This document shows positions 8,767 through 52,601 of a DNA stretch of 64,000 nt, piece by piece. The stretch covers positions 3,038,001 to 3,102,000 of the forward strand of contig NZ_LR215979.1 of assembly GCF_900683735.1 (NCBI RefSeq), in the 5' to 3' direction. Below the pieces are notes generated by a model that did no database searches, was not told the DNA's origin, and was given only the letters and a program-made list of their open reading frames with translations. The translations under genes were made by a program, and so were the position numbers. The stretch's first letter is position 1, and each line of letters begins with the position of its first letter. Origin of the DNA: Fusobacterium ulcerans ATCC 49185. GTDB lineage: Bacteria > Fusobacteriota > Fusobacteriia > Fusobacteriales > Fusobacteriaceae.

Positions 8767-9081
8767 TTTAATTTTTACAAATGATAAATATGATATTCTT
8801 GAGGATAGGATAGAAAATACTCTTGAATATAATTTCAAAACTCTGAATGATGGAAAAAAGAAATTAAAAATTAAAAAATATGATATTGATATCTCTGAAA
8901 ATTATGTGAATTTAAAAGCAAAAATAAATTCTGAAGTTAAAAGCTTTGATTTTGATAAAGCATTTATTCCTGTTAGAGAAGAGATAAAAAAGAAATGAAA
9001 TGAAATCCTGAAATCAATATTGTAGTGGAATTAGAAAAAATGATAGGAAAGGATGAAATAATCTATAGCAAAACTTTTTAA
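8726..9081 (+). pseudogene. small secreted-protein gene, apparently frameshifted
   Basis: An ATG at 8726 opens inside the end of the preceding GT9 gene (41-base overlap). It encodes a signal-peptide-like start (KKFIFLIMIGMYSLIF) and a charged body, stopping at 8998 after 90 residues. The stop lies in a triple GAAAT tandem repeat (8992-9006). Just downstream, 9010-9081 reads in another frame as EINIVVELEKMIGKDEII plus five residues and a TAA, which looks like the lost C-terminus. Shortening the repeat by two units and the A run by one base would join the parts. It may instead be a genuine 90-residue protein. Function unknown. Confidence 0.4.
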
Positions 9082-9101
9082 AAATAAAATAATATTTCTT
9101 G

Positions 9102-9163
9102 GAAGATTATAAATAATTAAGATGACATATTATTTTTTTAATTATTTTAATCTTCTTTTTTTA
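9102..9163 (+). terminator. terminator after the GT9/small-protein pair
   Basis: GAAGATTATAAATAATTAA pairs imperfectly with TTAATTATTTTAATCTTC, followed by a TTTTTTT run. Confidence 0.65.
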
Positions 9164-9231
9164 TCTACACTTTTTTAATTTTTTCGTGTATATTATATAA
9201 GGGATCAATATACAAGGAGGAAATTACAAAA

Positions 9232-9918
9232 ATGGCAAAAATCAGCATAGGAAACATAAAAAATGAAAGTTTAAATACTTTAAAAAATAATTGGGGAACT
9301 GGAATATTAATACATCTCTGTTTCTTTTTAATTTCTCTCCTTTTAGAAATATTAAATTCTCTGGAAGAATTAGTTTTCACTCAAATAGAAAACAGCTTAT
9401 TGCTAATTTTAATTTTTCTTATTATCTTTATAATTATGAATATTTCTCTTGTAAATGCAAATGTTATGGGAAGTCTTAAATGTTTTCTTGAATTAGCAAA
9501 GGTAAAAAAATTAGAAGTTAAGCATTATTCTTTTGGTTTTAATCATATGTTTACTGCTTTTAAAGTGGGAGGAGCTTTTTGCTTATTTACATTTTTATGG
9601 TCTTTGTTTCTAGTTATTCCTGGAATTATAAAAAGTATAAGCTACTCTATGTCATTTCTTATAGCAATTGAATATCCTGAAATTTCAGGAAGGGAAGCTT
9701 TAAAATTGAGTATGAAGCTAACTGATGGATATAAATGGGATATTTTTCTTTTAGGACTATCTTTTATAGGATGGGCTTTTTTGTCTGTTCTTACTTTAGG
9801 GATTGGTTTCTTATGGCTTAGCTCATACATGGATACTGCTTACTGTATTCTATATTTAAAATTAAAATGCAACAGAATAGAGCTATTTGAAGAATTAGAA
9901 AGAGAAATTTATTTATAG
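9232..9918 (+). CDS. DUF975-family integral membrane protein
   Basis: 228 residues, with hydrophobic segments at about 25-45, 58-80, 112-135, 140-150 and 175-210. The hallmarks of DUF975 are present: IPGIIKSISYSMSFLIA, PEISGREALKLSMKLTDGYK (ending KW), and LSFIGWAFLSVLTLGIGFLW. The role of the family is not established, although members are common in Firmicutes and Fusobacteria near cell-envelope genes. The ATG at 9232 is preceded by AAGGAGGAAATTACAAAA. Single gene between two terminators. Confidence 0.8.
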   Translation: MAKISIGNIKNESLNTLKNNWGTGILIHLCFFLISLLLEILNSLEELVFTQIENSLLLILIFLIIFIIMNISLVNANVMGSLKCFLELAKVKKLEVKHYSFGFNHMFTAFKVGGAFCLFTFLWSLFLVIPGIIKSISYSMSFLIAIEYPEISGREALKLSMKLTDGYKWDIFLLGLSFIGWAFLSVLTLGIGFLWLSSYMDTAYCILYLKLKCNRIELFEELEREIYL

Positions 9919-9934
9919 GTTTTTATTTGAGATT

Positions 9935-9967
9935 AAGGACAGAAATAAATTTATTTCTGTCCTTTTT
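9935..9967. terminator. bidirectional terminator
   Basis: AAGGACAGAAATAAA pairs with TTTATTTCTGTCCTT, with A and T tracts on both sides. It separates the convergent DUF975 and M20 genes. Confidence 0.85.
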
Positions 9968-9974
9968 AATTATA

Positions 9975-11165
9975 CTAAGTTTGATTCAACCTATTAATCA
10001 CAACATTAATTAAGCTCTTTATTCCTATTTTTATCACTCTTTCATCTGCAATAAATTTAGAACTGTGTAATTTACATAATCCTTTATTTTTTTCACTTTC
10101 TCCTCCTAACCACATAAACACTGATGGAACTTTTCTGCTAATATATGAAAAATCTTCTCCTATTGAAGTAGGAATTGTATTTACAATAACATTTTCTTTT
10201 CCAAGTGTATCTTCTAGTATATTTTTTATATTATTTGATAAATTAACATCATTATATACTGAAACGTATCCATCTGTATATTCTAATTCTGCAATACACC
10301 CATAAGCCTTTGATATATATTCCACAATCTCTTTTAATTTTATTTTTACAGTACTATTTATCTCATCTCCAAATGTTCTCACAGTTCCTTCCATTATAAC
10401 ATCATTTGCAATAATATTGTATCTATCCCCTCCATAAATTTTTCCAATAGATATTACAGCTTTTTCAGAATAAGATAAATTTCTGCTAATAATAGTTTGA
10501 ATAGAGGTTATAATATTTCCTGCTACAATGATAGGATCTTTTCCCTCATTAGGCAGAGATCCATGGCAGCTTTTCCCTATTATTTTTATTTTAAACCTAT
10601 CTGATTTTGCTGTTGCAATACCAGGACAAATTTCTATTTTTCCTAATGGGATTCCTAATACATGCATTGCATATGCTTCATCTACTTCTTTCAAAACTCC
10701 TAAACTAATCATTTCTTTTGAACCACCTATTGGTGAGCTTTCTTCAGCATGTTGAAACATGAATCTAACATTTCCATTTAATTTTTCTTTTAATCTATTT
10801 AAAATAACAATAGTTCCTAATAAAATAGCTGAATGAAAGTCATGTCCACAAGCATGCATAACATGACTATTCTGTGAAGAATATATCAAATTTGTTTCCT
10901 CTTCTAAAGGCAAAGCGTCCATATCAGCTCTTAAAAGTAAAGTTTTTTTATTTTTATGTGAATTTATTTGACCTATAATTCCATAATTTAAAGAATTTAA
11001 TTTTAGATCATTTATATTATTTTTTTTCAATATTTTTATTATTTTTTTAGAAGTTTCTTTTTCATTATTACTCAATTCAGGATATCTGTGAATATCTCTT
11101 CTCAAAAGTAATATTTCATCAAAAGTTTCATTTATTAATTTTTCTATATATTCATTTTCAACCAT
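9975..11165 (-). CDS. M20D-family metallo-amidohydrolase (N-acyl amino acid deacylase type)
   Basis: 396 residues. Metal-site motifs: RADMDALPLEE, HACGHDFHSAILLG, and QHAEESSPIGGSKEMI with the catalytic Glu pair. The lid-domain motif is GKSCHGSLPNEGKDPI and the late His is in LHSSKF. This is the HipO/aminoacylase/N-acetyldiaminopimelate deacetylase group, which removes acyl groups from amino acids or small peptides in the cytoplasm. It is last in a four-gene operon after the RpiR regulator, transporter and nitrilase-type amidase, which suggests use of an imported amide or acylated amino acid. Substrate unknown. Confidence 0.85.
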   Translation of the reverse strand: MVENEYIEKLINETFDEILLLRRDIHRYPELSNNEKETSKKIIKILKKNNINDLKLNSLNYGIIGQINSHKNKKTLLLRADMDALPLEEETNLIYSSQNSHVMHACGHDFHSAILLGTIVILNRLKEKLNGNVRFMFQHAEESSPIGGSKEMISLGVLKEVDEAYAMHVLGIPLGKIEICPGIATAKSDRFKIKIIGKSCHGSLPNEGKDPIIVAGNIITSIQTIISRNLSYSEKAVISIGKIYGGDRYNIIANDVIMEGTVRTFGDEINSTVKIKLKEIVEYISKAYGCIAELEYTDGYVSVYNDVNLSNNIKNILEDTLGKENVIVNTIPTSIGEDFSYISRKVPSVFMWLGGESEKNKGLCKLHSSKFIADERVIKIGIKSLINVVINRLNQT

Positions 11166-18952: not shown

Positions 18953-19050
18953 AAAAAAAACCGACAATCTAGGCTTGTTCGCCCAGACGGTCGGCATTAT
19001 CATCGTTATACTTCATGTGGTTAATTCCACGTTCCGTCAGTCATATAACT
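18953..19050 (-). ncRNA. ZTP (pfl-motif) riboswitch with overlapping terminator, controls pflB
   Basis: Read on the minus strand: P1 5' strand GTTATAT (19043-19049) pairs with GTATAAC (19005-19011). P2 is GTGG/CCAC (19027-19030 and 19017-19020). The invariant second-domain sequence GCCGACCGUCUGGGC (18980-18995) follows. The same CCGACCGTCTGGGC also forms the 5' arm of a terminator hairpin with GCCTAGATTGTCGG (18961-18974), followed by T8. Ligand binding to the aptamer should therefore block termination. This matches the known pfl RNA motif architecture. The motif, the gene downstream and the promoter position all agree. Confidence 0.92.
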
Positions 19051-19056
19051 GATATA

Positions 19057-39636: not shown

Positions 39637-40587
39637 TTACCCAATAAATATTTTCCCTAAGATGGGTAAAAGAACAGGTACAGAAAATGTTAATATAATT
39701 CCTGTTATAAGAGTAACTAATCCTAGTTCTGCTCCTACAAATTTAGTTATAGGCATAAGCATTGTATCCATATTTCCTGCTCCACCAGCTGCAATAGCAC
39801 TTCCTTTACTTATTTTAATTAATATAGGAAGAAAGAATACAGTAAAGAACTCCCTCATTATATTTACAATGAAACCATAAGTTCCAGCTTCTATTCCAAA
39901 TTTACTAGTCATAAATGCTCCAGTCAAACTGTAATACCCCATTCCTCCAGCTGAAATAATAGAAATGTTTTCAGGAACACCCAATATTTTTCCAGCTATG
40001 GCTCCTCCTAAAAGACTTCCTATCAATATAGTTAAAGATATCAAAATAATTTTTACTCCTATTATTTTTACATATTCCAACACTTTTAAATTACTTCCAA
40101 GAAATATTCCTACCCCTGTATATAACATTATTAAAGAGATAATCAAAGAATAATTTAAAATTATCTCATAAGATTTGTCCATAAAAAAAACACCAATAAT
40201 AACACCTAATATTACACTTATTGGAATAATTGCAGTAAGAAAAGACTTGCCCTCTTCTATTTCTTCATTATCCTTTTTATTTTCATAATTTCTAAGTTCT
40301 ATTTCCTTTTTTATTTTTTCTAAAGGAAGGATAGTTTTTTCCAATATTATAGTTAAAATTATGCTGAATAATATCCCCAAAATAGAAATAATAGCACAAT
40401 TCCAACCTATTTTTCCAAGTTCCGATATAATCTCTTCATTAATTCCTATATTCATTCCAATAGTAGTCATTAAAATAATTATAACCATATTTGTCACTAT
40501 ATCTATTTTTTTCATAATCTTTTTTGAAAGATTTCTTGTTCCTATTATGATTCCAAAAAAAAGACAGATAAAAGGCATTATTGTCAT
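39637..40587 (-). CDS. lysO: LysO-family (DUF340) lysine exporter
   Basis: 316 residues and about eight helices. The C-terminal LysO motif GGAGNMDTMLMPITKF, the preceding AGGMGYYSLTGAFMTSKFG and the DUF340 core VGIFLGSNLKVLEYVK identify the YbjE/LysO family, which exports lysine and thialysine. It lies between the purine operon and the tail cluster and marks the edge of ordinary chromosomal genes. Confidence 0.85.
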   Translation of the reverse strand: MTIMPFICLFFGIIIGTRNLSKKIMKKIDIVTNMVIIILMTTIGMNIGINEEIISELGKIGWNCAIISILGILFSIILTIILEKTILPLEKIKKEIELRNYENKKDNEEIEEGKSFLTAIIPISVILGVIIGVFFMDKSYEIILNYSLIISLIMLYTGVGIFLGSNLKVLEYVKIIGVKIILISLTILIGSLLGGAIAGKILGVPENISIISAGGMGYYSLTGAFMTSKFGIEAGTYGFIVNIMREFFTVFFLPILIKISKGSAIAAGGAGNMDTMLMPITKFVGAELGLVTLITGIILTFSVPVLLPILGKIFIG

Positions 40588-40626
40588 GTTTCAACTCCTC
40601 TTAATACTTTTATAAAATCACTCTTT

Positions 40627-40655
40627 ATTCTATCATCTTTTTTGAAAGATTACAA
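40627..40655 (-). promoter_or_regulatory. promoter of lysO
   Basis: TTGTAA (40650-40655), a 17-base spacer and TAGAAT (40627-40632). Confidence 0.55.
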
Positions 40656-40740
40656 TTTAAAGATGTTATCATATAATAAGCAAGACACTAGATTGAGTAC
40701 AAATAAAAAATTATTTTTATACAAATTTAATCAGTAAAAA

Positions 40741-40763
40741 AGGAGCTCAAGATGAACTCCCTC
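40741..40763 (-). terminator. terminator at the end of the tail cluster
   Basis: GGAG-T-TCATCTTGA-G-CTCC with TTTTTT on the minus strand, about 30 bases beyond the holin stop. Confidence 0.65.
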
Positions 40764-40793
40764 TTTAGGATATATTTATTCCTTTAATTAAAT

Positions 40794-41132
40794 CTAATTT
40801 TTCAATTTTTTATCCAAATGTTTTTTACCTAATATTACTGCTCCAAGGCTTCCAATTAAAGCTGTTAATTCTCCTGGAATAGGAAGACTATATATTTCAA
40901 CTCCCATAAAAGCAGTTAGATAAGGGGTTATTATATGATGAAATATTACTAATATACTATACACATAAAACAAATGTAGAATCCCTCCTCTTTCAAGAAA
41001 TTTTGAAAATACCTGTAGTCTTTCCTTTTCCACATCAGCCATTATTTGATCCACTTCCTCTGGCTGTAAATATTTTCTTAATATATCTGGTAAAAAACTG
41101 CTTACTACATTTAATACAGTTTTTTGAAACAT
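40794..41132 (-). CDS. phage-type holin, three-TM (GTA-holin-like)
   Basis: 112 residues from ATG 41132 (GAGAGGTGATATTA upstream). An N-terminal amphipathic/charged half (DILRKYLQPEEVDQIMADVEK) is followed by hydrophobic segments at about 56-76 and 85-108, and a lysine-rich end (GKKHLDKKLKN). This resembles the 3TM holin family of gene-transfer agents and tailocins, which permeabilises the inner membrane. Its place right after the endolysin supports this. Identity is by architecture and context. Confidence 0.65.
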   Translation of the reverse strand: MFQKTVLNVVSSFLPDILRKYLQPEEVDQIMADVEKERLQVFSKFLERGGILHLFYVYSILVIFHHIITPYLTAFMGVEIYSLPIPGELTALIGSLGAVILGKKHLDKKLKN

Positions 41133-41146
41133 TAATATCACCTCTC

Positions 41147-41734
41147 TTATTTCCAATTGTTCTCTATGTTTAAATATCTTCTTTTTATATCTTGAGGCGC
41201 TTTTTTACCCCATTTCAACCCCAGTTTAAAATTATATATATCTTCAGATTTTAATACTTTTTTACTTTTTATAAAATTATGCATAAGCCCATTCTTACTA
41301 AGGTTAAACTGATTATGATAATCTACTAAGTGGACAAAAGTTTTTTCATCTTCAAATTCTGTCAGCTCATTGAGATTGGCTACATAGTTTACCATTTCTT
41401 TTATATGTTCTTTATCCAGTTCATCTATATCCTTTCTATGATTTTTTAATTTATTATTAAGATCACTTATTTCCTTATCTAATCTTAATAATCTATCAAT
41501 ATCACCAGTTGTAAATCTGCATTTTTCTTTTAAAAAATTTCTGGCTTTTGAATTATGTTTTACATCAAACTGACTTCTGCCAAAACTATATCCTGATATT
41601 CCTCCTGCATAGCTAAATTTACAGATCACATTTTCATTTCCTGATATTTCATTTAGAGATATTACATACATAATTTTATTTAAATCAATATTTTTTATTA
41701 TTTCTTTTATATTTATAAATATCACTCCTTTCAT
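41147..41734 (-). CDS. endolysin, lysozyme-like
   Basis: 195 residues. The N-terminal half has LNEISGNENVICKFSYAGGI followed by SGYSFGRSQFDVKHN, similar to the GSYGRxQFD region of phage lysozyme-like transglycosylases, with the Glu of LNEISG as likely catalytic acid. The C-terminal half is helical and charged. There is no signal peptide, so export through the neighbouring holin is expected. The start is uncertain: ATG 41734 lacks a ribosome site, and AAAGGAGTG falls just inside the ORF. Confidence 0.6.
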   Translation of the reverse strand: MKGVIFINIKEIIKNIDLNKIMYVISLNEISGNENVICKFSYAGGISGYSFGRSQFDVKHNSKARNFLKEKCRFTTGDIDRLLRLDKEISDLNNKLKNHRKDIDELDKEHIKEMVNYVANLNELTEFEDEKTFVHLVDYHNQFNLSKNGLMHNFIKSKKVLKSEDIYNFKLGLKWGKKAPQDIKRRYLNIENNWK

Positions 41735-41743
41735 TTAAAAGTT

Positions 41744-43477
41744 TTATAGTGTTTCTACTTTTCTTCCTAAATATATTTGTCTTTTCAAATTTTGTTCAAC
41801 AGGAAAGTTTTGAATCCAATTTGTCATATCTGAAACGCCCACATTTTGAGTCCAATATGGTGGAAATTGTAGAAAAAAATATGGTGCTATATCAGCTGTT
41901 TCAAAATTAGTTGGAGTTTTTCTCCATAATTCTATTTTAAATACCTCCATATTCAAACAATTATTATTAGTTGCAATTTCAATTCCAATAGCAGCTGTAT
42001 CTTTTTCTCCATTGCCAGTTTGCATATAATTATCTAAATACCCTTGTGGATACTGCATTGTATTCATTTGCATTCCATAAAGATCATAATATTTATTTTT
42101 ATCCTGCTCATCTGTTTGAATATAAACATTTTCACTTGCTCTTGCTAGCTGTATATTGTTCACGAAATTATAATATCCTGTACTTGTATCAAACCACTGC
42201 CAGATCATATGGTCATCTGTATCTCTAGCCCAAGCATTCATTCTAACATGGAAAATACAAAGTATTTTATCATTATTTCTTATAGCTTCTTCAATTAGTT
42301 TCCCTGAAAATTTTATAATTAATGGATATGAAATATTATTTGGTTGTTCTTGAGGTATTGAAGAAGAAAATGGAAATTTTACATAATTATTATCTTTTTG
42401 AGTTCCTCCATTTATAGCATCTATTAATGGAGTGATATCCATATCAGTTTTAACTGGAACCTGGGAGTTATGTAAATCAAAGCATCTCATTTCTACTTTA
42501 AAATCTTCATTATTATTAGCGGATGTTATTTGAGGATTTAACCTTTCCCATTTTTCATATTTCCACTTTACTTTCCCTTCTAATTCTGGATAATTTTCTC
42601 TATAAATTGGCCTATAATTTTCAAGAGATAGCCAGTCTTCTGGAGTTTCCACTGTCCTATCTAAAGTATCAACAATATCTCCTGCTGTAGCTCCTGTTCC
42701 TGAAATTCCTGCCTCTCCTTTCCAAGTTGACCACTGAAATTCAGTCCCATCATCATATATAAATTTATAATATACTTTTTCATTATCTTCTCTCACAAAT
42801 TGAGTTCTTACTATCCCATTTCCTTTCCTTCCTTGCTCTCCTTGTTCTCCTTTTTCTCCAATATCTCCTTTTGGAAGTACAAAATTCAATACTTGCTCTG
42901 GACTTTCACCATTTATTGTTACTTGAGCTTGTTCTCCTTTTTCAACAGTTCCAATAGAGAGAATATTTCCAGGTCCAATATCTCCTCTATCGCCTTTTTC
43001 ACCTTTCAAATCATTACTATATTGATATTCTGTTTCTCCCTCTACTCTTATTCCTAATTTATTTTCTTCCCAAGTAAATTCTAACCCTCTTCCTATAAGA
43101 GACAGCAGCCATTCTTCTTCTGTTCCTTCAAATCCATTATCAACAGCCACTTCATAAGCATTTTCTCCATCTTCTACCATAAATCTATCTGTAGTTCCAT
43201 CTGTATAAGTAAATTCATAAGTTGTTACTGGCCCTTGTTTATTTTTCTTAAAAAAAGATAGTATCCCTCTTCCTGTTTCTCCTTTCTCTCCCTGTATTCC
43301 TTGATTTCCTCTTTTAACTCTCACTTCACCTATTATATTTCCATCTTCTCTTATAACTTCATAAACATTATCTCCATTAGATGAGGTTTCCTTATATTTT
43401 AGTTCTTTAATAGAAAGACCTCTTGGTCCCTCTATTACTCCTGCATTTATTTCTAATGCTACATTTCCTTTCTTCAT
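41744..43477 (-). CDS. tail fibre with collagen-like repeats and C-terminal receptor-binding domain
   Basis: 577 residues from ATG 43477 (TAATG overlap with the previous stop). Three Gly-X-Y stretches (for example GNQGIQGEKGETGRG, KGEKGDRGDIGPG, GDIGEKGEQGEQGRKGNG) alternate with small modules such as ENAYEVAVDNGFEGTEEEWL, known from many phage tail fibres. The last 300 residues are non-repetitive, rich in Asn, Trp and Tyr, and probably form the trimeric adhesin tip that selects the target cell. Confidence 0.8.
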   Translation of the reverse strand: MKKGNVALEINAGVIEGPRGLSIKELKYKETSSNGDNVYEVIREDGNIIGEVRVKRGNQGIQGEKGETGRGILSFFKKNKQGPVTTYEFTYTDGTTDRFMVEDGENAYEVAVDNGFEGTEEEWLLSLIGRGLEFTWEENKLGIRVEGETEYQYSNDLKGEKGDRGDIGPGNILSIGTVEKGEQAQVTINGESPEQVLNFVLPKGDIGEKGEQGEQGRKGNGIVRTQFVREDNEKVYYKFIYDDGTEFQWSTWKGEAGISGTGATAGDIVDTLDRTVETPEDWLSLENYRPIYRENYPELEGKVKWKYEKWERLNPQITSANNNEDFKVEMRCFDLHNSQVPVKTDMDITPLIDAINGGTQKDNNYVKFPFSSSIPQEQPNNISYPLIIKFSGKLIEEAIRNNDKILCIFHVRMNAWARDTDDHMIWQWFDTSTGYYNFVNNIQLARASENVYIQTDEQDKNKYYDLYGMQMNTMQYPQGYLDNYMQTGNGEKDTAAIGIEIATNNNCLNMEVFKIELWRKTPTNFETADIAPYFFLQFPPYWTQNVGVSDMTNWIQNFPVEQNLKRQIYLGRKVETL

Positions 43478-44205
43478 TATATCAACCCCCATATTCCTTC
43501 AACTCTTCCAGTATATCCATCTTTAGGCCCTGGATGGTGACTTACTGTTACTTGTAAATCCCCATTCCATAAAACGCTTATACTCCCTCCACCATATCTA
43601 GTTCCATCTCTGGAAATAATTCTTTGACCTGGTATTAAAATTAAAAAATGTACATCATCTTCTGTTCCACCTGCTTTTATTATTAAAACCTTATATTTTT
43701 TAGCTTTTTCATTGAGAGTAATAGCTCTTGTTCCTCCATAAATGTTAAAACTTCCATTAATATCTAATTTTTCAACAGTATTCATATCATCTCTTGATAT
43801 TGTATTTGTCAATTTTCTAAATTCTGTAAAATTATTAGTATACTTAATTATTCCATCAGAATCTTTATATGCTATTCCACTATTCGAAGCAATAGCCCCA
43901 TTGTTTAAAGGTGTTGTTGTGTATATATCTCCCACTTTTATTCCACCATTTGTTCCTCTCTGAACCAGTTTACTCCCTACATTCTCCATTGACATATCTT
44001 CTTTATATAGAGTTTCTTTTAGAAAATCTTTTATTATCTTATATGAATTTATAATATTGTCCCAATTGATATTTAAAGCATGACCTGCTGGAATGTCTGC
44101 CATAGGTTTATTTATTTCTGTTTTTAATTTTGAATAAACCTCTGGATCATACATCAAAGCTATTGCTGTTGCTATTTCTTCTAATCTTCCTTTATCAAGT
44201 GCCAT
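43477..44205 (-). CDS. tail-tip/fibre-associated protein, function unassigned
   Basis: 242 residues. I do not recognise a named family. The N-terminal 60 residues are helical (RLEEIATAIALMYDPEVYSK). The middle is a beta-rich repeat-like region (GIKVGDIYTTTPLNNGAIAS), and the end (GPKDGYTGRVEGIWGLI) resembles the compact tip domains of phage appendage proteins. It overlaps the fibre gene by the TAATG junction and lies ten bases after the hub gene, so it is likely a structural adaptor between hub and fibre. Confidence 0.6.
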   Translation of the reverse strand: MALDKGRLEEIATAIALMYDPEVYSKLKTEINKPMADIPAGHALNINWDNIINSYKIIKDFLKETLYKEDMSMENVGSKLVQRGTNGGIKVGDIYTTTPLNNGAIASNSGIAYKDSDGIIKYTNNFTEFRKLTNTISRDDMNTVEKLDINGSFNIYGGTRAITLNEKAKKYKVLIIKAGGTEDDVHFLILIPGQRIISRDGTRYGGGSISVLWNGDLQVTVSHHPGPKDGYTGRVEGIWGLI

Positions 44206-44214
44206 TTTTCCTCC

Positions 44215-45951
44215 TTATACTATAATTATCTCTTTATCATCTTTTATTTTACTATCATTATATAGCCATTCATTGAGTTTATATTGAATCTTTCCTCCCC
44301 CTGTAATAACAGTATTACATTGAAGTTCTCCTGTATCTCCAACTGAAATTGAATGTTCAATAGAATAAGCTCTCAAAAATAATGGTCTCTCTGTTAAATT
44401 TTCATGAATATACCATAGTTCATCATTTAGTTTCAATTTAGGCATCAAAGTTGTTTCGATTGTATAATTTACTACTGGATCTTTTAAATCTTTCAATGCC
44501 TGAGTTGCCAATTTCATAGCCATATCATTTGTAGTTATTATATTTTCTGTTAAATCAAGTCCTAAAGTTAATCTGTTTTCTCTATATCTAAGTATTGAAT
44601 CCTCATCTTTAAGTTCTATTGTTTTTACTTTATTGTTATCATTCTGATCCTTGTATACTACTGACACAATATTCCTTACCCTTGTCAAATCTCCTATATA
44701 GCTGAATTCTCCAACTACATCTCCTCTAAGAAGCTGATAAGTTATATAACTTGCTGAAATTGTATCTTCAAAAATTAACACCTGTTTATTTTTTGTTCTA
44801 TCATATCTAAAGTACAAACTCCATCCCTTTGATAGTGCAAGCTTTTGTATTGAATCCCATATAGTTGTATCTTCAACTGAATAATCTTCTGTCAAAGTAG
44901 CAGTATTGTATGGATCATATAGAAATTCAATATCTTCTCTTTTATTGTCAATTAATATCTGTTTTATTGTATCTTCAAATGTCATTCCTTTAGAATAGGT
45001 TTTATTTATTGCCATTACATCAAGATCATATGAAAAATCCTGACATTCCAAAGAGACATTATGGTAACCTCTTCCTTCATATCTTCTTATTTTTCCATCA
45101 AATATTATGATGTCTTCAGCTGCATTAAAGAATAATCCAATTACCATTCTTTCATTTACTGGAAGTTCAGTATTCAATCTTACTTTTATTCCATCTCTTT
45201 CTCTAGTAATATTTTCTATATAATATGGAAAATTATCTGGATCATCCTCTTTAGCAAAATAGAGATATTCTACTCCATATGTATCTGAAAAATATTTTCT
45301 TGAAAAATATCCAATAGCCCATGGCAAATATGAATATTTATAGTATCCTAAAATCTCAACAATGTCTGGATCTACATTTGGAATAAAATATTCCCTTGCT
45401 CCTGTTCCTTCAAATTCTGCTCTATCAGCATCTAAATCACTTGCTGTTGTTATTATTAAAAAGCTTACCTTTTCATACTGTCTTACCACTCTGTTAAAAT
45501 ATACATATAGACCATTTGCCATTTGAGAAGTATTTTCTATTTTTAAATCAGCCTCTGAAGGAGATAGAGAACATTCTTCATTATAGACACTAACCAAATC
45601 TATTCCTTCTACTCCTCTTATGTTTTTTAAAAGAATATATGTTTTATCTTCACCAGTTAAATTTAAATTGTAATGATTTGTAGATTTTGCTGTTCTTACC
45701 TTTACTCTTACTCTTCTTCCTAGTTGAAATTGATTAGTTGATAAGATAGGCCCTGTTGTAAGTTTTTTATTCTTATCATTATGAATGGTAAGATTAGCAA
45801 ACTTTTTTAAACTGTCTATTCCGAAATCTTCACTTCCAACTTCAGCTATATTTCCAAGATTTATAGTTGTAGTCCCTACAACCTGCTCTGTAAAGTCTTT
45901 CCATAATCCTTCATTACCAAGGAGTTCGTATTTAACTAGAAACTTTCTCAT
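44215..45951 (-). CDS. tail hub/baseplate protein
   Basis: 578 residues. The start (FLVKYELLGNEGLWKDFTEQ), the long beta-rich body, and the central DTIKQILIDNKREDIEFLYD and TIWDSIQKLALSKGWSLYFR fit a siphovirus tail hub (gp27/gpD-like module, as in Tal proteins or minocin-type particles). A GDTGELQCNTVITGGGKIQ stretch near the end is like the OB-fold hub domain. No lysozyme or peptidase domain is fused. Assignment rests on order after the distal tail gene and on domain style. Confidence 0.65.
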   Translation of the reverse strand: MRKFLVKYELLGNEGLWKDFTEQVVGTTTINLGNIAEVGSEDFGIDSLKKFANLTIHNDKNKKLTTGPILSTNQFQLGRRVRVKVRTAKSTNHYNLNLTGEDKTYILLKNIRGVEGIDLVSVYNEECSLSPSEADLKIENTSQMANGLYVYFNRVVRQYEKVSFLIITTASDLDADRAEFEGTGAREYFIPNVDPDIVEILGYYKYSYLPWAIGYFSRKYFSDTYGVEYLYFAKEDDPDNFPYYIENITRERDGIKVRLNTELPVNERMVIGLFFNAAEDIIIFDGKIRRYEGRGYHNVSLECQDFSYDLDVMAINKTYSKGMTFEDTIKQILIDNKREDIEFLYDPYNTATLTEDYSVEDTTIWDSIQKLALSKGWSLYFRYDRTKNKQVLIFEDTISASYITYQLLRGDVVGEFSYIGDLTRVRNIVSVVYKDQNDNNKVKTIELKDEDSILRYRENRLTLGLDLTENIITTNDMAMKLATQALKDLKDPVVNYTIETTLMPKLKLNDELWYIHENLTERPLFLRAYSIEHSISVGDTGELQCNTVITGGGKIQYKLNEWLYNDSKIKDDKEIIIV

Positions 45952-45954
45952 TAT

Positions 45955-46671
45955 CTATACCTCCTCTAAACTGAAAGAATATATTTTACAATTTTTTACT
46001 ATTCCATCAATTACTGCTGTTTGTGAACTCTCATTCACCTCATCTTTCAAAATAACTGTATAGTCTTTTCCTAATAATGTAAATGTTTTATACCCTCCTA
46101 TATCGCTGTATAGAACTTTTTCAAACTCTTCTATAGTGTTACAATAAACATCTGGGTAAAGCATATATTCAACATCTGCTAATGGAACTGTTGTTATATT
46201 AAATCTTTTTTTTCTTTGAGTATCAAATGTAGTGGAAATAATTAGATTTCCTTGATGATTTCTTGTACTATTCAACATAGTAGCAAAGTTAGCATTATCA
46301 ATACTGGCTATACAGTTTAACCTTATTCCATTCATAATTATTCCATTATCTTTCAGTGCTTGTGAAATATATTTGAATTCTCCCTTATACTTATCTGATG
46401 TTTTACAAACAAATATCAATTCTTTATAATCTTTTATCCTTGCTAAAAGATTATAGGTAATGTCTCTTGTTCCTGTATCATCAGCTTTAAGTACAAAACC
46501 TCCTTCAAATTCATACTCTTCTTCTTTTCCCATAGCCCATAAAGGAAGAGTGAAACGAGGAGCTGCTTCAGGAACAAGTCCAAAATCAAATTCTATTGTT
46601 ATTTCTTCTTCTTTTTTTGTTATTGTTATTACATGATTACTGTTGTCTGCTTTTATAATTTCTCTTCTCAT
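45955..46671 (-). CDS. distal tail protein (Dit-like)
   Basis: 238 residues, mostly beta. The N-terminal half (HVITITKKEEEITIEFDFGL) is followed by a helical insert and IISTTFDTQRKKRFNIT. It ends with a jelly-roll-like segment (YKTFTLLGKDYTVILKDEV). It follows the tape measure with a one-base overlap and precedes the hub, the position of Dit in siphophages. Family membership is inferred from order, size and fold style. Confidence 0.6.
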   Translation of the reverse strand: MRREIIKADNSNHVITITKKEEEITIEFDFGLVPEAAPRFTLPLWAMGKEEEYEFEGGFVLKADDTGTRDITYNLLARIKDYKELIFVCKTSDKYKGEFKYISQALKDNGIIMNGIRLNCIASIDNANFATMLNSTRNHQGNLIISTTFDTQRKKRFNITTVPLADVEYMLYPDVYCNTIEEFEKVLYSDIGGYKTFTLLGKDYTVILKDEVNESSQTAVIDGIVKNCKIYSFSLEEV

Positions 46672-49217
46672 TAAAACTTATTCCTCCTTGCTTTTCTTAT
46701 GCTGTCACTTGTTATTTTTATTATTCTTTTATCTAATAATTGATCTCCAAGAGTTATAGGAATCTCAATTTCAAATGTGCCATTAAATTCACTTGTCACT
46801 TTTTGTCCTAAATTGTATTTCCATAAATTTGTAGACATTCCTTGAACTGCATTTTTACTCATATTTTTATTCAGATTATTCATACTTCCTGTCAAATTAT
46901 CCACATTCAATCCTAGTTCTCTAAATAATTCTTCCAGTTTCTCATTAGAAATTTCTGTATATTTTTTAATAAGCTCCATATATTGTGTAAGTGATAAACT
47001 TTCTAAATCTCCTGTTTCAAGATCAATTCCAAGATTACTATCTTTTACAAACATTTCTTTTACTACATCTGCTACTTTATCTGACATTCCATTGAATAGA
47101 GCTTTTGACATTTCAGTATTAACAAAAGCATTTTTCAAACTTTCAGCAAGCATACCTTCAATATCATTTCCAAGATCTTCCATACCACCAAAAAAACCTT
47201 TTTTAACAACTGCTGCTAAACTATCCGCTGAGAAATTTATAATTCCCTTAATTGTTGCTTTAAGTGTTTTTTCAAGATCTCTATTAGCATTTGTTACTTG
47301 TTTTGCAAGTTCTCCAATATCAATAGCTCCATACTTTCCTTCCCCTGTACTTAAAATATCTCCTTTCAACACTGCTCCACCAGTTAAAGATTTAAACCAA
47401 TCCATTATCTGTTGTTCATTGTACTGTGGCATCAATTGTTTAAGAGTTGTCATACTAACTCCATCAGAACCAGATTTTGCACCATTAAGACTTGATAGTA
47501 CATTATCATAATCAGTATTTGCTGAAACCTTGTCATAAAGATTAATATAGCTTCCTGCTCCCAATTTTAAAAGATCTTCATTATATGCTTCCATAACATC
47601 CTGCCATTTGTATTGTCCAGATATTAATCCTCTTTGTAATCTTTCCTGAGCAGCCTTTCTTTTTCTTTCTTCTCTCTTTTTCTTCTTTTTACTCTTGCTT
47701 CCAAAGAGACTTCCACCAATACTTCCAATAGCTCCACCTACAATACTTCCCACTGGCCCGCCTACTGCTGTTCCTATTCCACTTCCAATCATGCTTCCAA
47801 GATTTCCCTCAGTTCCTCCACCTAAAGCTCCACTTATTATATTTCCTATTCCCATTCCTTGATTAAAGTTTTCAAATCCAGGTATTGCCTTATTTCCAAG
47901 AAATCCAGCTAATTTCTCTGCTCCAATACTTGTATTTTTAAATGCTTCAAATAAAGAACTTCCTGTTCCTAATACATTAGAGATATCTTTTATAGATTGT
48001 TTACCTGTAACCTCTCCTAACATTTGAAACATACTTGAAAGATTTTTAAGTCCTGTCCCTGCATTATTAATAGAATTTTGAATATTTACTTGTATATCAT
48101 TATATTTTTTATCATTTTCTTCTTTTTCACTATTGGTTTTAATTATTTCCAATTTAGAATCTATATTTTCAATATCAATTTTTGTTGCTCCAGGTTTATT
48201 TTTTTGATGTTGAAAAAGCTTTTCTATTTTTTCATCTTCAAGTTTTTTTAAATTAATTTCATGTTTTTGCTTTTCTATTTTAATCTCATTCATTTTTCTC
48301 TCTGCTAAAAGTTTTTCTATTTTTTTATTAAACTCTTTTGTCTCTTCTAAAACTTTTTTATTATAGTCAACATTTATTTTTAATTCTTCTTGTTTGTATT
48401 TTTCTTCAGCATCATTTTTATTTACTTTTTTTTCTTCAACCTTTTTTAATTCTGTAATATTATTCTTTGCTTTTTTTTCAACTATTTTTTTTTCCTTTTC
48501 ATTATCAAATATATTATTTATAATATTTTTTTCTTCTACATCTTTTATTGCTGTTTGTTTTAAATTTTCAAGTTCTTTTATTCTCTTTTCATTTTTGATA
48601 TATCTTTCTAATTCTTCATTTTTCCCTTTTGATCCTTCTCTTTTTTTCATATTTTCAATTGATTCTAATACAACTTTTCTATCTTCTTCTTTAATATTTG
48701 CCTTATTCTTTCCACCTGCCATTTTTTTACCTAACTTGGGAGTTACTCGTAACTGATGCTTTTGTTCATATTTACTATTTTCATTAAATAATTTTTGATA
48801 TTCTTTTTCATATTCTAAATATTTTTCTTGAGAATCTATTATATAATTTCTTAAGTCAAGTTTTGATTTTGTTTCATCTTTTTGACTGAGATAATCTGCA
48901 TAACTAATCTCTTTCATTTTAAATTTTTCATAAGAATTAGCTAGTCTTACATCTGCTTTTTTTAAATATTCTAATACTTTATTCAACTTTTTTTGTTCTT
49001 TTATTGTTAAAACTTGTTTGTTATCCAATTCATTTAATATTTTTAAATTTTTTTCTATTTCAATACTAATTTGTTTTTCTGCTTTTACATTTTCTTCTGC
49101 TTCTTCAATTATTTCTTGTATCTTTTTTTGAGCAAGCTCATAACTCTCTTGAACTGCTAATCCTATCATTGCACTAATTATAGCATCTGCAATAACTTTC
49201 GCTGTTATTAGGTCCAT
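46671..49217 (-). CDS. tape measure protein
   Basis: 848 residues. A hydrophobic N-terminus (AKVIADAIISAMIGLAVQES) is followed by about 370 residues of Lys/Glu coiled coil, then a Gly/Ala/Ile-rich segment (about 455-510, for example GSMIGSGIGTAVGGPVGSI) that looks membrane-active, a basic KSKKKKKREERKRK patch, and a helical C-terminus. It is the longest gene of the cluster and sets tail length. At about 0.15 nm per residue it predicts a tail near 125-130 nm. Confidence 0.88.
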   Translation of the reverse strand: MDLITAKVIADAIISAMIGLAVQESYELAQKKIQEIIEEAEENVKAEKQISIEIEKNLKILNELDNKQVLTIKEQKKLNKVLEYLKKADVRLANSYEKFKMKEISYADYLSQKDETKSKLDLRNYIIDSQEKYLEYEKEYQKLFNENSKYEQKHQLRVTPKLGKKMAGGKNKANIKEEDRKVVLESIENMKKREGSKGKNEELERYIKNEKRIKELENLKQTAIKDVEEKNIINNIFDNEKEKKIVEKKAKNNITELKKVEEKKVNKNDAEEKYKQEELKINVDYNKKVLEETKEFNKKIEKLLAERKMNEIKIEKQKHEINLKKLEDEKIEKLFQHQKNKPGATKIDIENIDSKLEIIKTNSEKEENDKKYNDIQVNIQNSINNAGTGLKNLSSMFQMLGEVTGKQSIKDISNVLGTGSSLFEAFKNTSIGAEKLAGFLGNKAIPGFENFNQGMGIGNIISGALGGGTEGNLGSMIGSGIGTAVGGPVGSIVGGAIGSIGGSLFGSKSKKKKKREERKRKAAQERLQRGLISGQYKWQDVMEAYNEDLLKLGAGSYINLYDKVSANTDYDNVLSSLNGAKSGSDGVSMTTLKQLMPQYNEQQIMDWFKSLTGGAVLKGDILSTGEGKYGAIDIGELAKQVTNANRDLEKTLKATIKGIINFSADSLAAVVKKGFFGGMEDLGNDIEGMLAESLKNAFVNTEMSKALFNGMSDKVADVVKEMFVKDSNLGIDLETGDLESLSLTQYMELIKKYTEISNEKLEELFRELGLNVDNLTGSMNNLNKNMSKNAVQGMSTNLWKYNLGQKVTSEFNGTFEIEIPITLGDQLLDKRIIKITSDSIRKARRNKF

Positions 49218-49237
49218 TTTATACCTCCTTCCAAATC

Positions 49238-49849
49238 TTAATTTATTCTCTTCTTATCCAACAATATTCCTATCTCATGAAATGTTGAATAATCTCTATA
49301 TTCTTCTTTTTTCTTTCTCCCAAGAATATCTATTGTTTCTTTGCTTCCAACTATCCCAGCTATTGTATTAATCAATGCATTAGTATGAAACACTTCTCTT
49401 TCTAAATGCTTATAATCAGCTTCAAATATGAGATTTATATCCCAATAAGTCATATCTAATACCTCTTCCTGCTTATATCCTTTGCTCATCAATGTAATAA
49501 TAAGCTCTCTAAAATCAATTTTCTCTGATTTTTTTTCTTCAATTTTTATATCTGATTTTTCTTTAATCTCTATATTTAAAGGATTTCCAGCTTCTTCTAT
49601 CAATTTTTGAAAAACTTTATAAAACATCTCATAGCTTTCTTTGATATCAGGATAACTTTCCAGAAACTCTTCATAAGAAAGTTGAGATCCCTGAAGTGAA
49701 CAATAGATTATCTTAGTAATAATTTCTAAATTTCCCATTCCTGCCTTTTTATACATTTCAATCTCATCTGGATAATATTTTGAAAGTTTTATTCTTGCTC
49801 TTAAATTAAGTTTTAATTTATATTCTTTATCATTTATTTCTACTCTCAT
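49238..49849 (-). CDS. tail assembly chaperone
   Basis: 203 residues, small and acidic/helical. The N-terminal part (about 1-90) begins VEINDKEYKLKLNLRARIKL, typical of tail chaperones. A hinge rich in Glu/Lys (IEIKEKSDIKIEEKKSEKI) is followed by FRELIITLMSKGYKQEEVLD and WDINLIFEADYKHL. Many phages make this second part by a -1 frameshift, but here both halves are one frame. It lies between tail tube and tape measure, as expected. Confidence 0.7.
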   Translation of the reverse strand: MRVEINDKEYKLKLNLRARIKLSKYYPDEIEMYKKAGMGNLEIITKIIYCSLQGSQLSYEEFLESYPDIKESYEMFYKVFQKLIEEAGNPLNIEIKEKSDIKIEEKKSEKIDFRELIITLMSKGYKQEEVLDMTYWDINLIFEADYKHLEREVFHTNALINTIAGIVGSKETIDILGRKKKEEYRDYSTFHEIGILLDKKRIN

Positions 49850-49916
49850 TTAGCCTCCCATCTTATTTTTTTAAATCAAAATATTTGAATATTTTCATTT
49901 AAAAGAACAAGGGAAA

Positions 49917-49930
49917 GGGGATTTCTCCCC
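49917..49930 (-). terminator. partial terminator after the tail tube gene
   Basis: A GGGGA-GAAA-TCCCC hairpin with only a short T/C tract sits 9-22 bases past the tail tube stop. It would reduce read-through, so tube protein is made in excess over tape measure. Confidence 0.5.
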
Positions 49931-49938
49931 TATTCTCC

Positions 49939-50736
49939 TTATTGAAATACTTTCTTTTCTATCATTCCTGATTGAAGTTTTAAGCTTGCTGTATAAGACA
50001 GAGCACTTCCACCATCTAGAGTTCCTGAATGTGTAAATTCTGCGACTTTATAAACTCCTTCAATATATGGAGTATTTCTTTGTTTTAATGCTCCATGTCT
50101 TGCTTTAATAGTAAATTCACCATCAAATGCAAAGTTTATTGTAGCTACTGAAGGAAAATCTGGATGATAGTATCCTTGAATTCCATCAATTGAAGATGTT
50201 TTTAATCCTCCTATTGCACTTTCATATCCATTTGAATGTTTGTTGTTTGTACTTATTTCTGCCTGCTGCTCAGTAGATGAAAAATCTGTTATTTGAGCTA
50301 CATCAATATATCCATCATTTTCAAGTAAAATAGCATTTATAAAAGCTGAATTTACAGGTTCATTTGCTAACGTAATTGAACTTGCAGTTGTTGCAGTTAC
50401 TTTTACTATTTCAACAAGATTAGGGTTTGCCATTCCTTTAAAATTTTCAGCAGTTGCTAATCCAGCTAATTCAGATTTATCAAATAGAGCTACTACAACA
50501 TTTTTAGGTGCTGCCATTACTTCTGCTGTACCTGTTGTGATTGTGAATTCTTTTCCAGCTAATGTTCCTGTCAAAAGCTCCATTTTTGGAATTATAGTTT
50601 TCATTGAATCTGTATATTCACTTTCATTTTTTATAGCTTCATATGCCTGCATTCCAATGTAAAGGCCAGCTCCATTAGGCTGTACCTCTAAAAATCTTTC
50701 CTTACTGTTGTGTACTACTTCTTTTATATTTACCAC
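49939..50736 (-). CDS. major tail tube protein
   Basis: 265 residues from GTG 50736, with AGGAGG eight bases upstream. Beta-rich with Gly/Thr-rich loops: NGAGLYIGMQAYEAIKNESE, GKEFTITTGTAEVMAAPKNV and FAFDGEFTIKARHGALKQRN. The closing GVYKVAEFTHSGTLDGGSAL is like the tail tube proteins of siphophages. It is the first structural gene after the operator-controlled promoter, ahead of the chaperone and tape measure, and is expected to be the most abundant product. Confidence 0.75.
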   Translation of the reverse strand: MVNIKEVVHNSKERFLEVQPNGAGLYIGMQAYEAIKNESEYTDSMKTIIPKMELLTGTLAGKEFTITTGTAEVMAAPKNVVVALFDKSELAGLATAENFKGMANPNLVEIVKVTATTASSITLANEPVNSAFINAILLENDGYIDVAQITDFSSTEQQAEISTNNKHSNGYESAIGGLKTSSIDGIQGYYHPDFPSVATINFAFDGEFTIKARHGALKQRNTPYIEGVYKVAEFTHSGTLDGGSALSYTASLKLQSGMIEKKVFQ

Positions 50737-51069
50737 TTTGTATACCTCCTGTATTTTTCTTTGTTTTAGGTTCTCATGTTAAATTCTCCAGAATTTTCAA
50801 TTACTTATTTTCATATCTTTAAATGTCAAATCAAGGTTTTTATTTCTTACATGAAAGAGTTCATTCATCCCAATATTAAAATATTGATGCTCTGATAAAT
50901 TAATTTAACTTTTTATACTTTTTTGTATAATGTTTTTTAAAAAAAATATTAAAAATAAATAACCATAGTCCTTGAAAATTAACATAAGAACCAAGGGAAA
51001 CATTGTTTACCTCAATTGTGAATCTGTTTTTAATAGGTTTTAGATATTTCATGAAATCATCTTAAATTT
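50737..51069 (-). other. leader of the tail operon with two vestigial small ORFs
   Basis: Between the promoter and the tail tube gene lie two short reading frames. One (50900-51052, 50 residues, MKYLKPIKNRFTIEVNNVSL then GSYVNFQGLW) faintly resembles the N-terminus of tail-tube-type proteins. The other (50797-50868, 23 residues, MNELFHVRNKNLDLTFKDMK) seems to continue in another frame to 50766 as GEFNMRT. Neither has a good ribosome site except GGGATGAATG for the second. They look like remnants of deleted phage genes. An operator half-palindrome pair (50913-50930) lies inside this leader. Confidence 0.35.
50913..50930. promoter_or_regulatory. operator O1 (TTATAC-N6-GTATAA)
   Basis: A perfect inverted repeat TTATAC/GTATAA separated by six bases, located downstream of the tail-operon promoter. 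Confidence 0.65.
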
Positions 51070-51098
51070 ATTATACAATTTTGTATAATAAAAGTCAA
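51070..51098 (-). promoter_or_regulatory. tail-operon promoter with embedded operator O2
   Basis: TTGACT (51093-51098), a 17-base spacer and TATAAT (51070-51075). The operator TTATAC-AATTTT-GTATAA (51071-51088) covers the -10 and most of the spacer, so a bound repressor would exclude RNA polymerase. This is the strongest promoter in the block. Confidence 0.8.
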
Positions 51099-51150
51099 TA
51101 GAAATTTTTATATTATTTTTCTTTCATTTTAAAATGTTCTCTTTTACTGT

Positions 51151-51930
51151 TTATTTAGTTTCTTTTTTCTTTTCGATTAGTCCTTTAAGCATACTTTCTA
51201 TCATTTCTCTTTCATTCATATCTAGTTTATCTATATATGACATCAAAGGATCTTTTCTTCTTTTAGTTGTATTATTTATTACCTGGATAACTTTTCCATA
51301 AGCTGTTATATCACTATTTTCTATCCTTAAATCTCCATATTCCTTATTATCACTTTCTAATACATACTCACCATTTTTATATTTTAATCTTTTTACCAGC
51401 CCATCAGCATGATCGCTTCCTTTAGTCAAAAACACACCTATTTCTCCAACTTCTGGCATCAATTCTGTATTTACAACAACAATAGACCCATCTAAAATAG
51501 TATCTTCCATAGAATTTCCCTGTACTAAAATAGCAACTATATTATTACCAGCTGTCTTTGGTATTGAAATAAAATCTATAGGTTCAGCAATAGTTTCTCT
51601 CCCTAGTCCAGCAGAAACACTTGAAAATAATGGAACCTCCATCAGTTTTATTGGTTTTATATTTTTTAGTTCAAGAATATTATCTTTAATTACTTTTGGT
51701 GTTTTATCAATAGCTATCGCCATTGTAATTTCTTTTTTTTCTTGAGAACTTAAATTAAAACCAGAGACAAATTTATCAATAAAATCATTTTTAGGAGTTC
51801 TTCTCCCAGTCTTATAATGACCTATTGTAGCAACAGGAACCCCTGTTTCTCTCGAAATCTGTTCTAAATTATATCCATTTTTTTTCATAAAATTTTCAAG
51901 ATATTTTGAAAATTCCTTTTTTTTCTCCAT
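51151..51930 (-). CDS. XRE/S24 self-cleaving repressor (CI/LexA-like) of the tail cluster
   Basis: 259 residues. The N-terminal HTH spans about 8-60 (YNLEQISRETGVPVATIGHY). A linker leads to the S24 domain: cleavage site Ala107-Gly108 in SSVSAGLGRE, nucleophile Ser140 in VQGNSMEDTILDG, and general base Lys180 in GLVKRLKY. All three are intact, so RecA-stimulated autoproteolysis is expected on DNA damage. It lies upstream of the structural operon in the same direction, with two operators in front of each. The tail promoter lies between this gene and the tail genes. Confidence 0.88.
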   Translation of the reverse strand: MEKKKEFSKYLENFMKKNGYNLEQISRETGVPVATIGHYKTGRRTPKNDFIDKFVSGFNLSSQEKKEITMAIAIDKTPKVIKDNILELKNIKPIKLMEVPLFSSVSAGLGRETIAEPIDFISIPKTAGNNIVAILVQGNSMEDTILDGSIVVVNTELMPEVGEIGVFLTKGSDHADGLVKRLKYKNGEYVLESDNKEYGDLRIENSDITAYGKVIQVINNTTKRRKDPLMSYIDKLDMNEREMIESMLKGLIEKKKETK

Positions 51931-51975
51931 CTCACTCCCACCTTTCTATGTTAATTTATTTCTATTATATCTTTT

Positions 51976-52015
51976 TTATACAAATTTGTAAAATATTTTA
52001 TCTGAATTTGTATAA
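51976..52015. promoter_or_regulatory. operators O3 and O4 upstream of the repressor gene
   Basis: TTATAC-AAATTT-GTAAAA (51976-51993) and TTATCT-GAATTT-GTATAA (51998-52015) match the O1/O2 consensus with one and two changes and keep the 6-base spacer. They lie 46 or more bases upstream of the repressor start, consistent with autoregulation. Confidence 0.6.
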
Positions 52016-52063
52016 TTTTGTCGTTTATTAATTATCATACAATAATAAATTTAAAATTTATTG

Positions 52064-52098
52064 AGCAAAAATAAAGAGCCCTGATTTCTCAAGGCTCT
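52064..52098 (-). terminator. terminator of the gap-pgk-GNAT region
   Basis: AGAGCC pairs with GGCTCT over a 12-base loop (52075-52098), followed on the minus strand by TTTATTTTTG. Confidence 0.75.
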
Positions 52099-52130
52099 AT
52101 ATATAATCATTAAGATAATTGATTGTATGT

Positions 52131-52565
52131 TTACTTTTTTTCTATATCCTTCATGAAAAGTTTAAATCCCATCTCATCATATTTAAACTCTGCTCCCTTG
52201 AACATTGTTAATGATGATATATTGTCTGATTTAACCAATCCAGTCAGTATTTCAAGACCATTATCTCTAGCTTTTTCCTCAGCATATTTTAAGAGTTTTT
52301 TTCCTATAGCCCTATTTTGAAAATCTTTTCTTACACCTATAAGGTCTACCCACATTCCATCATAATGAAGATTACTTACATAAAGTAATCCTAGATAAGC
52401 AACTGGAATATTCTCTTCATAGTATACAAATACTCTGTAATGATCATTCTTTTTTATCTTTTCACACAGTATCTCAGAAGTATATGGTATATCTTGAAAA
52501 GATTCACTGTCTATCAATAACAATTCATCTGCCATTTTCAAAGAACCATCAAACTCTTTTATCAT
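52131..52565 (-). CDS. GNAT-family N-acetyltransferase
   Basis: 144 residues. Motif A LIGVRKDFQNRAIGKKLLKY holds the acetyl-CoA pyrophosphate loop (Q-N-R-A-I-G-K). EILTGLVKSDNISSLTMFKG and FKYDEMGFKLFMK complete the fold. It is 36 bases after pgk and probably on the same transcript. The acceptor is unknown. Confidence 0.82.
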   Translation of the reverse strand: MIKEFDGSLKMADELLLIDSESFQDIPYTSEILCEKIKKNDHYRVFVYYEENIPVAYLGLLYVSNLHYDGMWVDLIGVRKDFQNRAIGKKLLKYAEEKARDNGLEILTGLVKSDNISSLTMFKGAEFKYDEMGFKLFMKDIEKK

Positions 52566-52601
52566 AACATCACACTCCCTGCTGTTGTGAAAATATATCT
52601 G

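Follow-up and report, generated by a model that had tools for sequence, protein, structure and literature searches.

F-type pyocins are non-contractile, headless tails encoded by a gene cluster that starts at the tube gene and includes lysis genes, and they are controlled by PrtN and PrtR. Tailocins of this F type are called rare in PMC10811719, which names the F-type pyocin and monocin besides rhizoviticin and cites a title that relates the F-type pyocin to phage lambda. According to PMC6872733, monocin, the F-type tailocin of Listeria monocytogenes, is built on a three-module plan in which both capsid genes and an early phage module are absent; its host is Gram-positive, its 17 genes include four putative regulators, and it has a metalloprotease anti-repressor. 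Rhizoviticin, the F-type tailocin of Allorhizobium vitis, is described in PMC10811719 as RecA-dependent and as encoded by a headless, chimeric prophage region with a LexA-family repressor and with DnaA-domain, DnaB-like and RuvC genes. The present work concerns a headless tail unit in Fusobacterium ulcerans ATCC 49185, located within a stretch of 64,000 nucleotides (contig NZ_LR215979.1, positions 3,038,001 to 3,102,000) which is referred to below as the window. Like monocin, this unit lacks capsid genes and an early phage module and follows the three-module plan, but it consists of one S24 repressor and nine tail and lysis genes; like rhizoviticin it is a headless region with a LexA-type repressor, but it has none of the replication-related genes named above, and it is smaller than either. 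Its nearest relatives are fusobacterial prophages and its control looks local, which sets it apart from the pyocins. The comparisons with these tailocins are between descriptions.

The unit is most probably a domesticated, SOS-inducible F-type (non-contractile) tailocin derived from a fusobacterial siphophage, a reading to which we assign a probability of roughly 0.82 and under which both particles and killing are predicted from the genes. It is placed among the probable F-type tailocins because the features of that class which can be looked for in sequence are present, the copy in one relative (G026) excepted. The unit spans window positions 40735-52098 on the minus strand and comprises ten genes between two terminator-like hairpins, in the order S24 repressor, tail tube, chaperone, tape measure, Dit, hub, tip protein, collagen-like fibre, lysin and holin. 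Its features are as follows, with coordinates given as positions within the window:

52075..52098, minus strand: Rho-independent terminator separating the GNAT gene from the unit (10-bp stem, 5 GC pairs, T-rich tail); a similar sequence occurs in all four loci that carry the unit
51151..51930, minus strand: S24 (LexA/CI-like) repressor with helix-turn-helix (PF00717, E 2.8e-19)
49939..50736, minus strand: major tail tube protein, GTG start (phrog_1407, E 0.016, weak)
49238..49849, minus strand: tail assembly chaperone, TAC (phrog_183, E 6.8e-10; PF12363, E 3.1e-5, slightly below its cut-off)
46671..49217, minus strand: tape measure protein, TMP, 848 amino acids (phrog_167, E 5.5e-9)
45955..46671, minus strand: distal tail (Dit) protein, named by position and synteny (43-78% identity to prophage counterparts)
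44215..45951, minus strand: tail hub (Tal-like) protein (phrog_1887, E 5.3e-11)
43477..44205, minus strand: tip protein, conserved at its N-terminus and divergent in its C-terminal domain; it may bind a receptor or attach the fibre
41744..43492, minus strand: collagen-like tail fibre, C-terminal part variable (phrog_14726, E 3.6e-12)
41147..41734, minus strand: predicted endolysin, lysozyme-like (relatives in phage contigs, middling fold match)
40794..41156, minus strand: holin, small predicted membrane protein (relatives in lysis positions of phage contigs L038 and L009)
40735..40767, minus strand: terminator-like hairpin at the operon end (-17.4 kcal/mol, z -4.6), similar in the four loci and not called by the consensus scan

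The tail gene set of the F type (tube, TAC, TMP, Dit, hub and fibre) is thus present without a sheath, with Dit and tube assigned partly by synteny. A sequence-only reading of this DNA had proposed a siphovirus-type tail and lysis module with its own S24 repressor, and had taken all of its reading frames to be intact. Every frame that it listed is present and open in the window copy, with the repressor, hub, TMP, TAC and fibre recognized by family and the rest largely by synteny; the gene list therefore stands, except that it had overlooked the gene at 43477-44205, and the claim of intactness does not extend to the G026 copy, in which the tube and TMP genes are frameshifted. Dit, the tip protein, the lysin and the holin gave no reliable match in the family searches and take their names from synteny with related phages. 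The related prophages hold homologues of the tube, chaperone, Dit, hub and tip protein in matching positions, and the tube is 96-98% identical to those of the units in G025 and G027 and 44-89% identical to the prophage tubes at the corresponding position. Neither a sheath gene nor a contractile baseplate gene was found among the ten by family searches, so the locus does not have the gene content of an R-type tailocin or contractile injection system. A lone match to the tail-sheath family phrog_15433 (8.1e-7) in fibre residues 78-167 was rejected as a sheath relation; the fibre families phrog_9525 and phrog_14726 match the same stretch. The hub had no match among 50,697 phage records, and a search of viral contigs with the tip protein returned 10 stretches, none of them a relative.

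Head, terminase, integrase and replication genes are all missing from the ten genes of the unit, as had been claimed, and no head, terminase or integrase gene occurs among the nine flanking genes scanned (on one flank GNAT, PGK, GAPDH, pseudouridine synthase and GlutR, on the other LysO, permease, amidohydrolase and EamA), which are ordinary. Searches of the whole genome (3.84 Mb) for one terminase family, phrog_2, and one capsid family, phrog_247, gave a single match each, both near 1.21 Mb in a separate, related, intact-looking prophage 1.9 Mb from the unit. The tyrosine-integrase domain PF00589 has 11 matches in the genome, and about 136 kb separate the unit from the nearest of them, at 2,942,911. 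An intact prophage carries terminase, capsid and integrase within the element, and these were not found at the locus.

The distribution of the unit was mapped with the hub protein, which has matches in 5 of 61 genomes of the family, F. ulcerans included, and, when used as a profile, again in 5 of 98 genomes of the phylum. The headless unit is found in 4 of the 12 genomes of the genus (F. ulcerans, G025, G026 and G027), with identical gene order and at the same site, next to gnat and pgk. Three further hub matches, in F. ulcerans, G027 and G002, belong to prophages. Behind the unit, an EamA-type reading frame follows directly in G026; LysO, permease and amidohydrolase genes intervene in F. ulcerans and G025, and two other reading frames and LysO intervene in G027. 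One genome of the genus, G028, has an empty site, in which gnat (52%) adjoins EamA (72%) without the unit and one other reading frame lies between pgk and gnat. The remaining seven genomes of the genus have no hub match; in five of these (G018-G021 and G023) neither gnat nor tail genes occur near pgk within the 10-18 kb read, and the other two are uninformative for the site, with pgk at a contig end in G022 and no pgk match in G024. The two checks that the sequence-only reading had suggested, of synteny across genomes and of a prophage allele at the site, yielded the four conserved loci and the one empty site, with no prophage allele seen among the 12 genomes.

Whether the unit is maintained by selection was evaluated from dN/dS ratios (Nei-Gojobori) for F. 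ulcerans against each of the three relatives and for G026 against G027, with two comparisons for the tube since the frameshifted G026 tube was excluded. The ratios are 0.04-0.08 for S24, 0.05-0.07 for the tube, 0.06-0.15 for the chaperone, 0.11-0.17 for Dit, 0.05-0.06 for the hub, 0.08-0.22 for the lysin and 0-0.07 for the holin. The range for these seven genes is thus 0-0.22, and that for the flanking genes is 0.006-0.21 (pgk 0.006-0.05, gnat 0.14-0.21, LysO 0.18-0.20, and permease 0.04 in one comparison); the tip protein, fibre and TMP evolve faster, at 0.15-0.67. At synonymous sites, the core unit genes of F. ulcerans differ from those of G025 by a dS of 0.13-0.44 (flanks 0.19-0.39), from those of G026 by 0.40-0.67 (flanks 0.21 and 0.69) and from those of G027 by 0.23-0.67 (flanks 0.18-0.84), and dS between G026 and G027 is 0.28-0.89 (flanks 0.20 and 0.38), which broadly matches vertical descent. 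In a tree of the tube, chaperone, Dit and hub proteins from eight loci, a branch scored 100/100 separates the four units from the other loci, and with a root outside them they form a clade; 21 of 500 label shuffles gave a value as low, and the order of the prophages is left open. The prophage of G027 and the IMG/VR contig L009 have short branches in this tree, and the prophages of G002 and of the F. ulcerans genome have long ones.

These data bear directly on the improbable alternative that the unit is a decaying prophage remnant which kept its tail module by chance. A remnant would agree with the clear kinship of the unit to siphophages whose lineage persists in prophage form, and with the frameshifts of the G026 copy, but it would not be expected to show core-gene dN/dS ratios of 0-0.22 at synonymous divergences of 0.13 to about 0.9, to sit at a single position in four species with no difference in gene set, to keep all unit frames open in three of the four copies, or to retain its operators and terminator-like hairpins. 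The comparisons indicate instead that, the G026 frameshifts excepted, the unit is held at a fixed site under purifying selection, and the earlier preference for a tailocin over a decaying prophage draws its support from this conservation across species and from operator sites that are specific to the locus.

The elements of the putative switch are the following:

52005..52015, minus strand: operator-like half site TTATACAAATT, which precedes the repressor promoter and occurs in the four loci
51992-51964, minus strand: repressor promoter-like site TTTACA-17-TATAAT, overlapped by the operator TTTTACAAATTTGTATAA (51976-51993)
51098-51070, minus strand: tail-operon promoter-like site TTGACT-17-TATAAT, with the palindromic operator TTATACAAAATTGTATAA (51071-51088) in its spacer and -10
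50737..51066, minus strand: 5' leader of the tail operon, about 330 nucleotides, with a third operator at 50913-50930

Both promoter-like sites have 11 of the 12 consensus bases, and they are the two best minus-strand sites in 40300-52600. The three operator sites and the half site are kept at all four positions across the four loci. At no more than one mismatch, the palindrome gives 16 rows in the 12 genomes of the genus, corresponding to 9 places which all lie inside the four units, with none in the other 8 genomes; a control with the reversed pattern gives 6. The possibility that the operators are genome-wide LexA boxes was rejected on the basis of this confinement. At up to two mismatches, the F. 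ulcerans genome gives 21 rows versus 12 for the reversed control, so weaker sites are indistinguishable from chance. Viral contigs L044-L046 match a shortened form of the operator pattern. A 50-residue reading frame at 50900-51052 was considered as a Cro-like gene and set aside, since no reading frame of at least 45 residues is listed there in the three relatives.

The repressor aligns with the LexA structure of PDB 3k2z over the Ala-Gly and Ser positions, and Ala107, Gly108, Ser140 and Lys180 do not vary among the four copies or in a repressor from G022 with 40% identity. As in LexA, Ala107-Gly108 is presumably the cleavage site and Ser140 and Lys180 the dyad. The S24 protein is best read as a predicted dedicated, self-cleaving repressor, and SOS induction of the unit is likely because these LexA-type cleavage residues are retained.

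The tape measure of the unit differs from those of its prophage relatives, which are fusobacterial prophages of the siphovirus type in F. ulcerans itself (1.205-1.244 Mb), in G027 (1.506-1.545 Mb) and on contig 9 of G002, together with the IMG/VR contigs L009 and L010. The tube, TAC, TMP C-terminus, Dit, hub, tip N-terminus and fibre N-terminus of the unit are homologous to theirs. The prophages differ in having head and packaging genes upstream of the tube (by family match in the F. ulcerans prophage and by layout in the others), in lying, where they are in genomes, away from the site of the unit, and in having TMPs of 1384-1492 residues, compared with 848, 735, at least 760 (frame broken near the start) and 893 residues in the four units. 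The PhageMin_Tail domain (PF10145) is found in all three prophage TMPs scanned (E <= 7.7e-22) and in none of the four unit TMPs, of which that of G026 was scanned over its open downstream part. About 575 residues at the C-terminal end are shared, and the N-terminal stretches differ from unit to unit. In the prophage of the F. ulcerans genome (L025), 7 of the 10 proteins scanned matched families, which give it small and large terminase subunits, capsid, minor head protein, tail-completion protein, integrase and endolysin; four small genes between its capsid and tube (142, 116, 108 and 107 residues), one of which matches the tail-completion family phrog_5, are absent from the unit. Two further small genes between TAC and TMP in this prophage (L025:16754-17301; 93 and 90 residues), antitoxin-toxin-like by eye, are likewise absent.

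A helper role for the locus, in which its tails would join the heads of a resident prophage or satellite and so alter its host range, is very improbable. The F. ulcerans genome does contain a related prophage with head genes, to whose hub and tip proteins those of the unit are homologous, but the four genes between capsid and tube in that prophage and the N-terminal region of its TMP have no equivalent in the unit, and in the hub search G025 and G026, which carry the unit, gave no second match beside the one in it. With respect to the tailocin reading, a tentative proposal is that domestication removed the PhageMin_Tail region of the TMP together with the connector genes, giving a shorter tail for membrane killing, and that a new, fast-changing N-terminus lets the length drift from species to species. 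The lost part would sit at the head-proximal end, because in a diffocin structure, as given in PMC11329794, the N-termini of the TMP contact the collar and the C-termini contact the spike; it is at this end, too, that the units lack the genes which prophages have between capsid and tube. The normal role of this region would be to join the tail to the head and to DNA delivery, and we infer the link between its loss and domestication. If the loss proves general, it would serve as a signature in sequence by which F-type tailocins can be told from siphophages.

The unit has its own lysis genes, as judged from synteny with phage lysis positions. Relatives of the lysin occur in six IMG/VR phage contigs, and in the four whose reading frames were read (L034, L036, L038 and L039) they stand amid late phage genes; in L038 the lysin directly precedes a relative of the holin (84%), and in L009 a holin relative (80%) stands behind another lysis-position gene. 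The structure model of the lysin (pLDDT 74.6) has middling VIA matches with Z up to 6.5, where values under 8 can reflect merely a common arrangement: a GH46 chitosanase (6.5), a prophage muramidase (6.4), two phage endolysins (6.0 and 5.7) and T4 lysozymes (5.3-5.6), alongside rows titled as receptors which we take to be T4-lysozyme fusions. Foldseek with the same model gave no match at E <= 0.001. The lysozyme assignment is made because of this context and the VIA matches of Z up to 6.5. In L038, a reading frame at 8536-9987 which is radical-SAM-like by eye (CxxxCxxC pattern) adjoins the lysin.

The tip protein of F. ulcerans is 77-80% identical to those of the three relatives in its N-terminal part and 21-28% identical in its C-terminal part, which resembles the prophages of its own genome and of G027; the C-terminal types of the other three units resemble phage L009. 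The distal part of the fibre is 94% identical to that of G025 and 49% identical to those of G026 and G027. Exchange of tip domains is expected of a weapon or a phage that tracks receptors. That the tail-like device has a different target or cargo, so that it acts for instance on eukaryotic cells or lyses its producer for matrix release rather than killing bacteria, is very improbable: family searches gave no convincing cargo or effector match among the ten genes, and the tip diversification and lysis cassette suit bacteriocins.

The operon also contains conserved RNA structure, in the leader and in the following element:

49850..49938, minus strand: pair of conserved RNA hairpins in the gap that separates the tube gene from the chaperone gene

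The hairpins are nearly invariant in the four units (L018-L021) and are also kept, with changed sequence, in the gap between tube and TAC of four prophage relatives (L009, L025 and L023 among the loci named); of 27 consensus pairs, 3 have double changes, with a covariation term of 0.03. They may set the ratio of tube to chaperone expression. The leader folds as a long rod in all four species (z -2.7 in F. ulcerans, with 1 of 100 shuffles equally good), and the third operator lies inside it, about 140-157 bp downstream of the tail-operon promoter. An Rfam scan of leader and hairpins gave two matches, both far below gathering scores. Elsewhere in the window there is a ZMP/ZTP riboswitch at 18974-19054 (minus strand, 57.9 bits).

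Taken as a tailocin, the unit would operate as follows. During normal growth the S24 repressor would bind the operators that overlap its own promoter and the tail promoter; upon DNA damage, RecA would trigger self-cleavage of the repressor, as its retained cleavage residues suggest, and the tail operon would then yield a headless siphovirus-type tail. By the rule that each residue of the tape measure adds about 0.15 nm, a tail of about 130 nm is predicted. The lysin and holin would burst the producer and release the tails. As in known tailocins, a surface receptor on related bacteria would be bound through the tip protein and fibre, the complex of tube and tape measure would damage the inner membrane of the target, and the target would probably be killed.

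Several observations weigh against this reading. The family match of the tube is weak (phrog_1407, E 0.016) and its structure model is poor (pLDDT 41), and promoter-like matches are common, with 98 found versus 72.3 expected. The G026 copy is frameshifted in the tube gene (L019:4592-4613) and near the TMP start (about L019:5750-5840), which may be an assembly error or a loss in that strain; if the frameshifts are real, that strain makes no tails. Finally, the intactness described here is that of one genome per species.

The sequence-only reading knew of no description of such a tailocin in Fusobacterium, and none from Fusobacteria was found among open-licence papers, as judged by title and the start of the abstract shown; PMC5720691, which covers F. 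varium Fv113-g1 and ATCC 27725, mentions three potential prophages. A conserved fusobacterial F-type tailocin, apparently derived from a phage lineage of its own and governed by a small switch within the locus, would bring this class of weapon into another phylum. It would also hint at an agent of narrow spectrum in a genus linked to colorectal cancer by PMC5720691. The presence of a tailocin and of prophage tails in one genome would also provide close pairs with which the parts for killing can be separated from the parts for DNA delivery.

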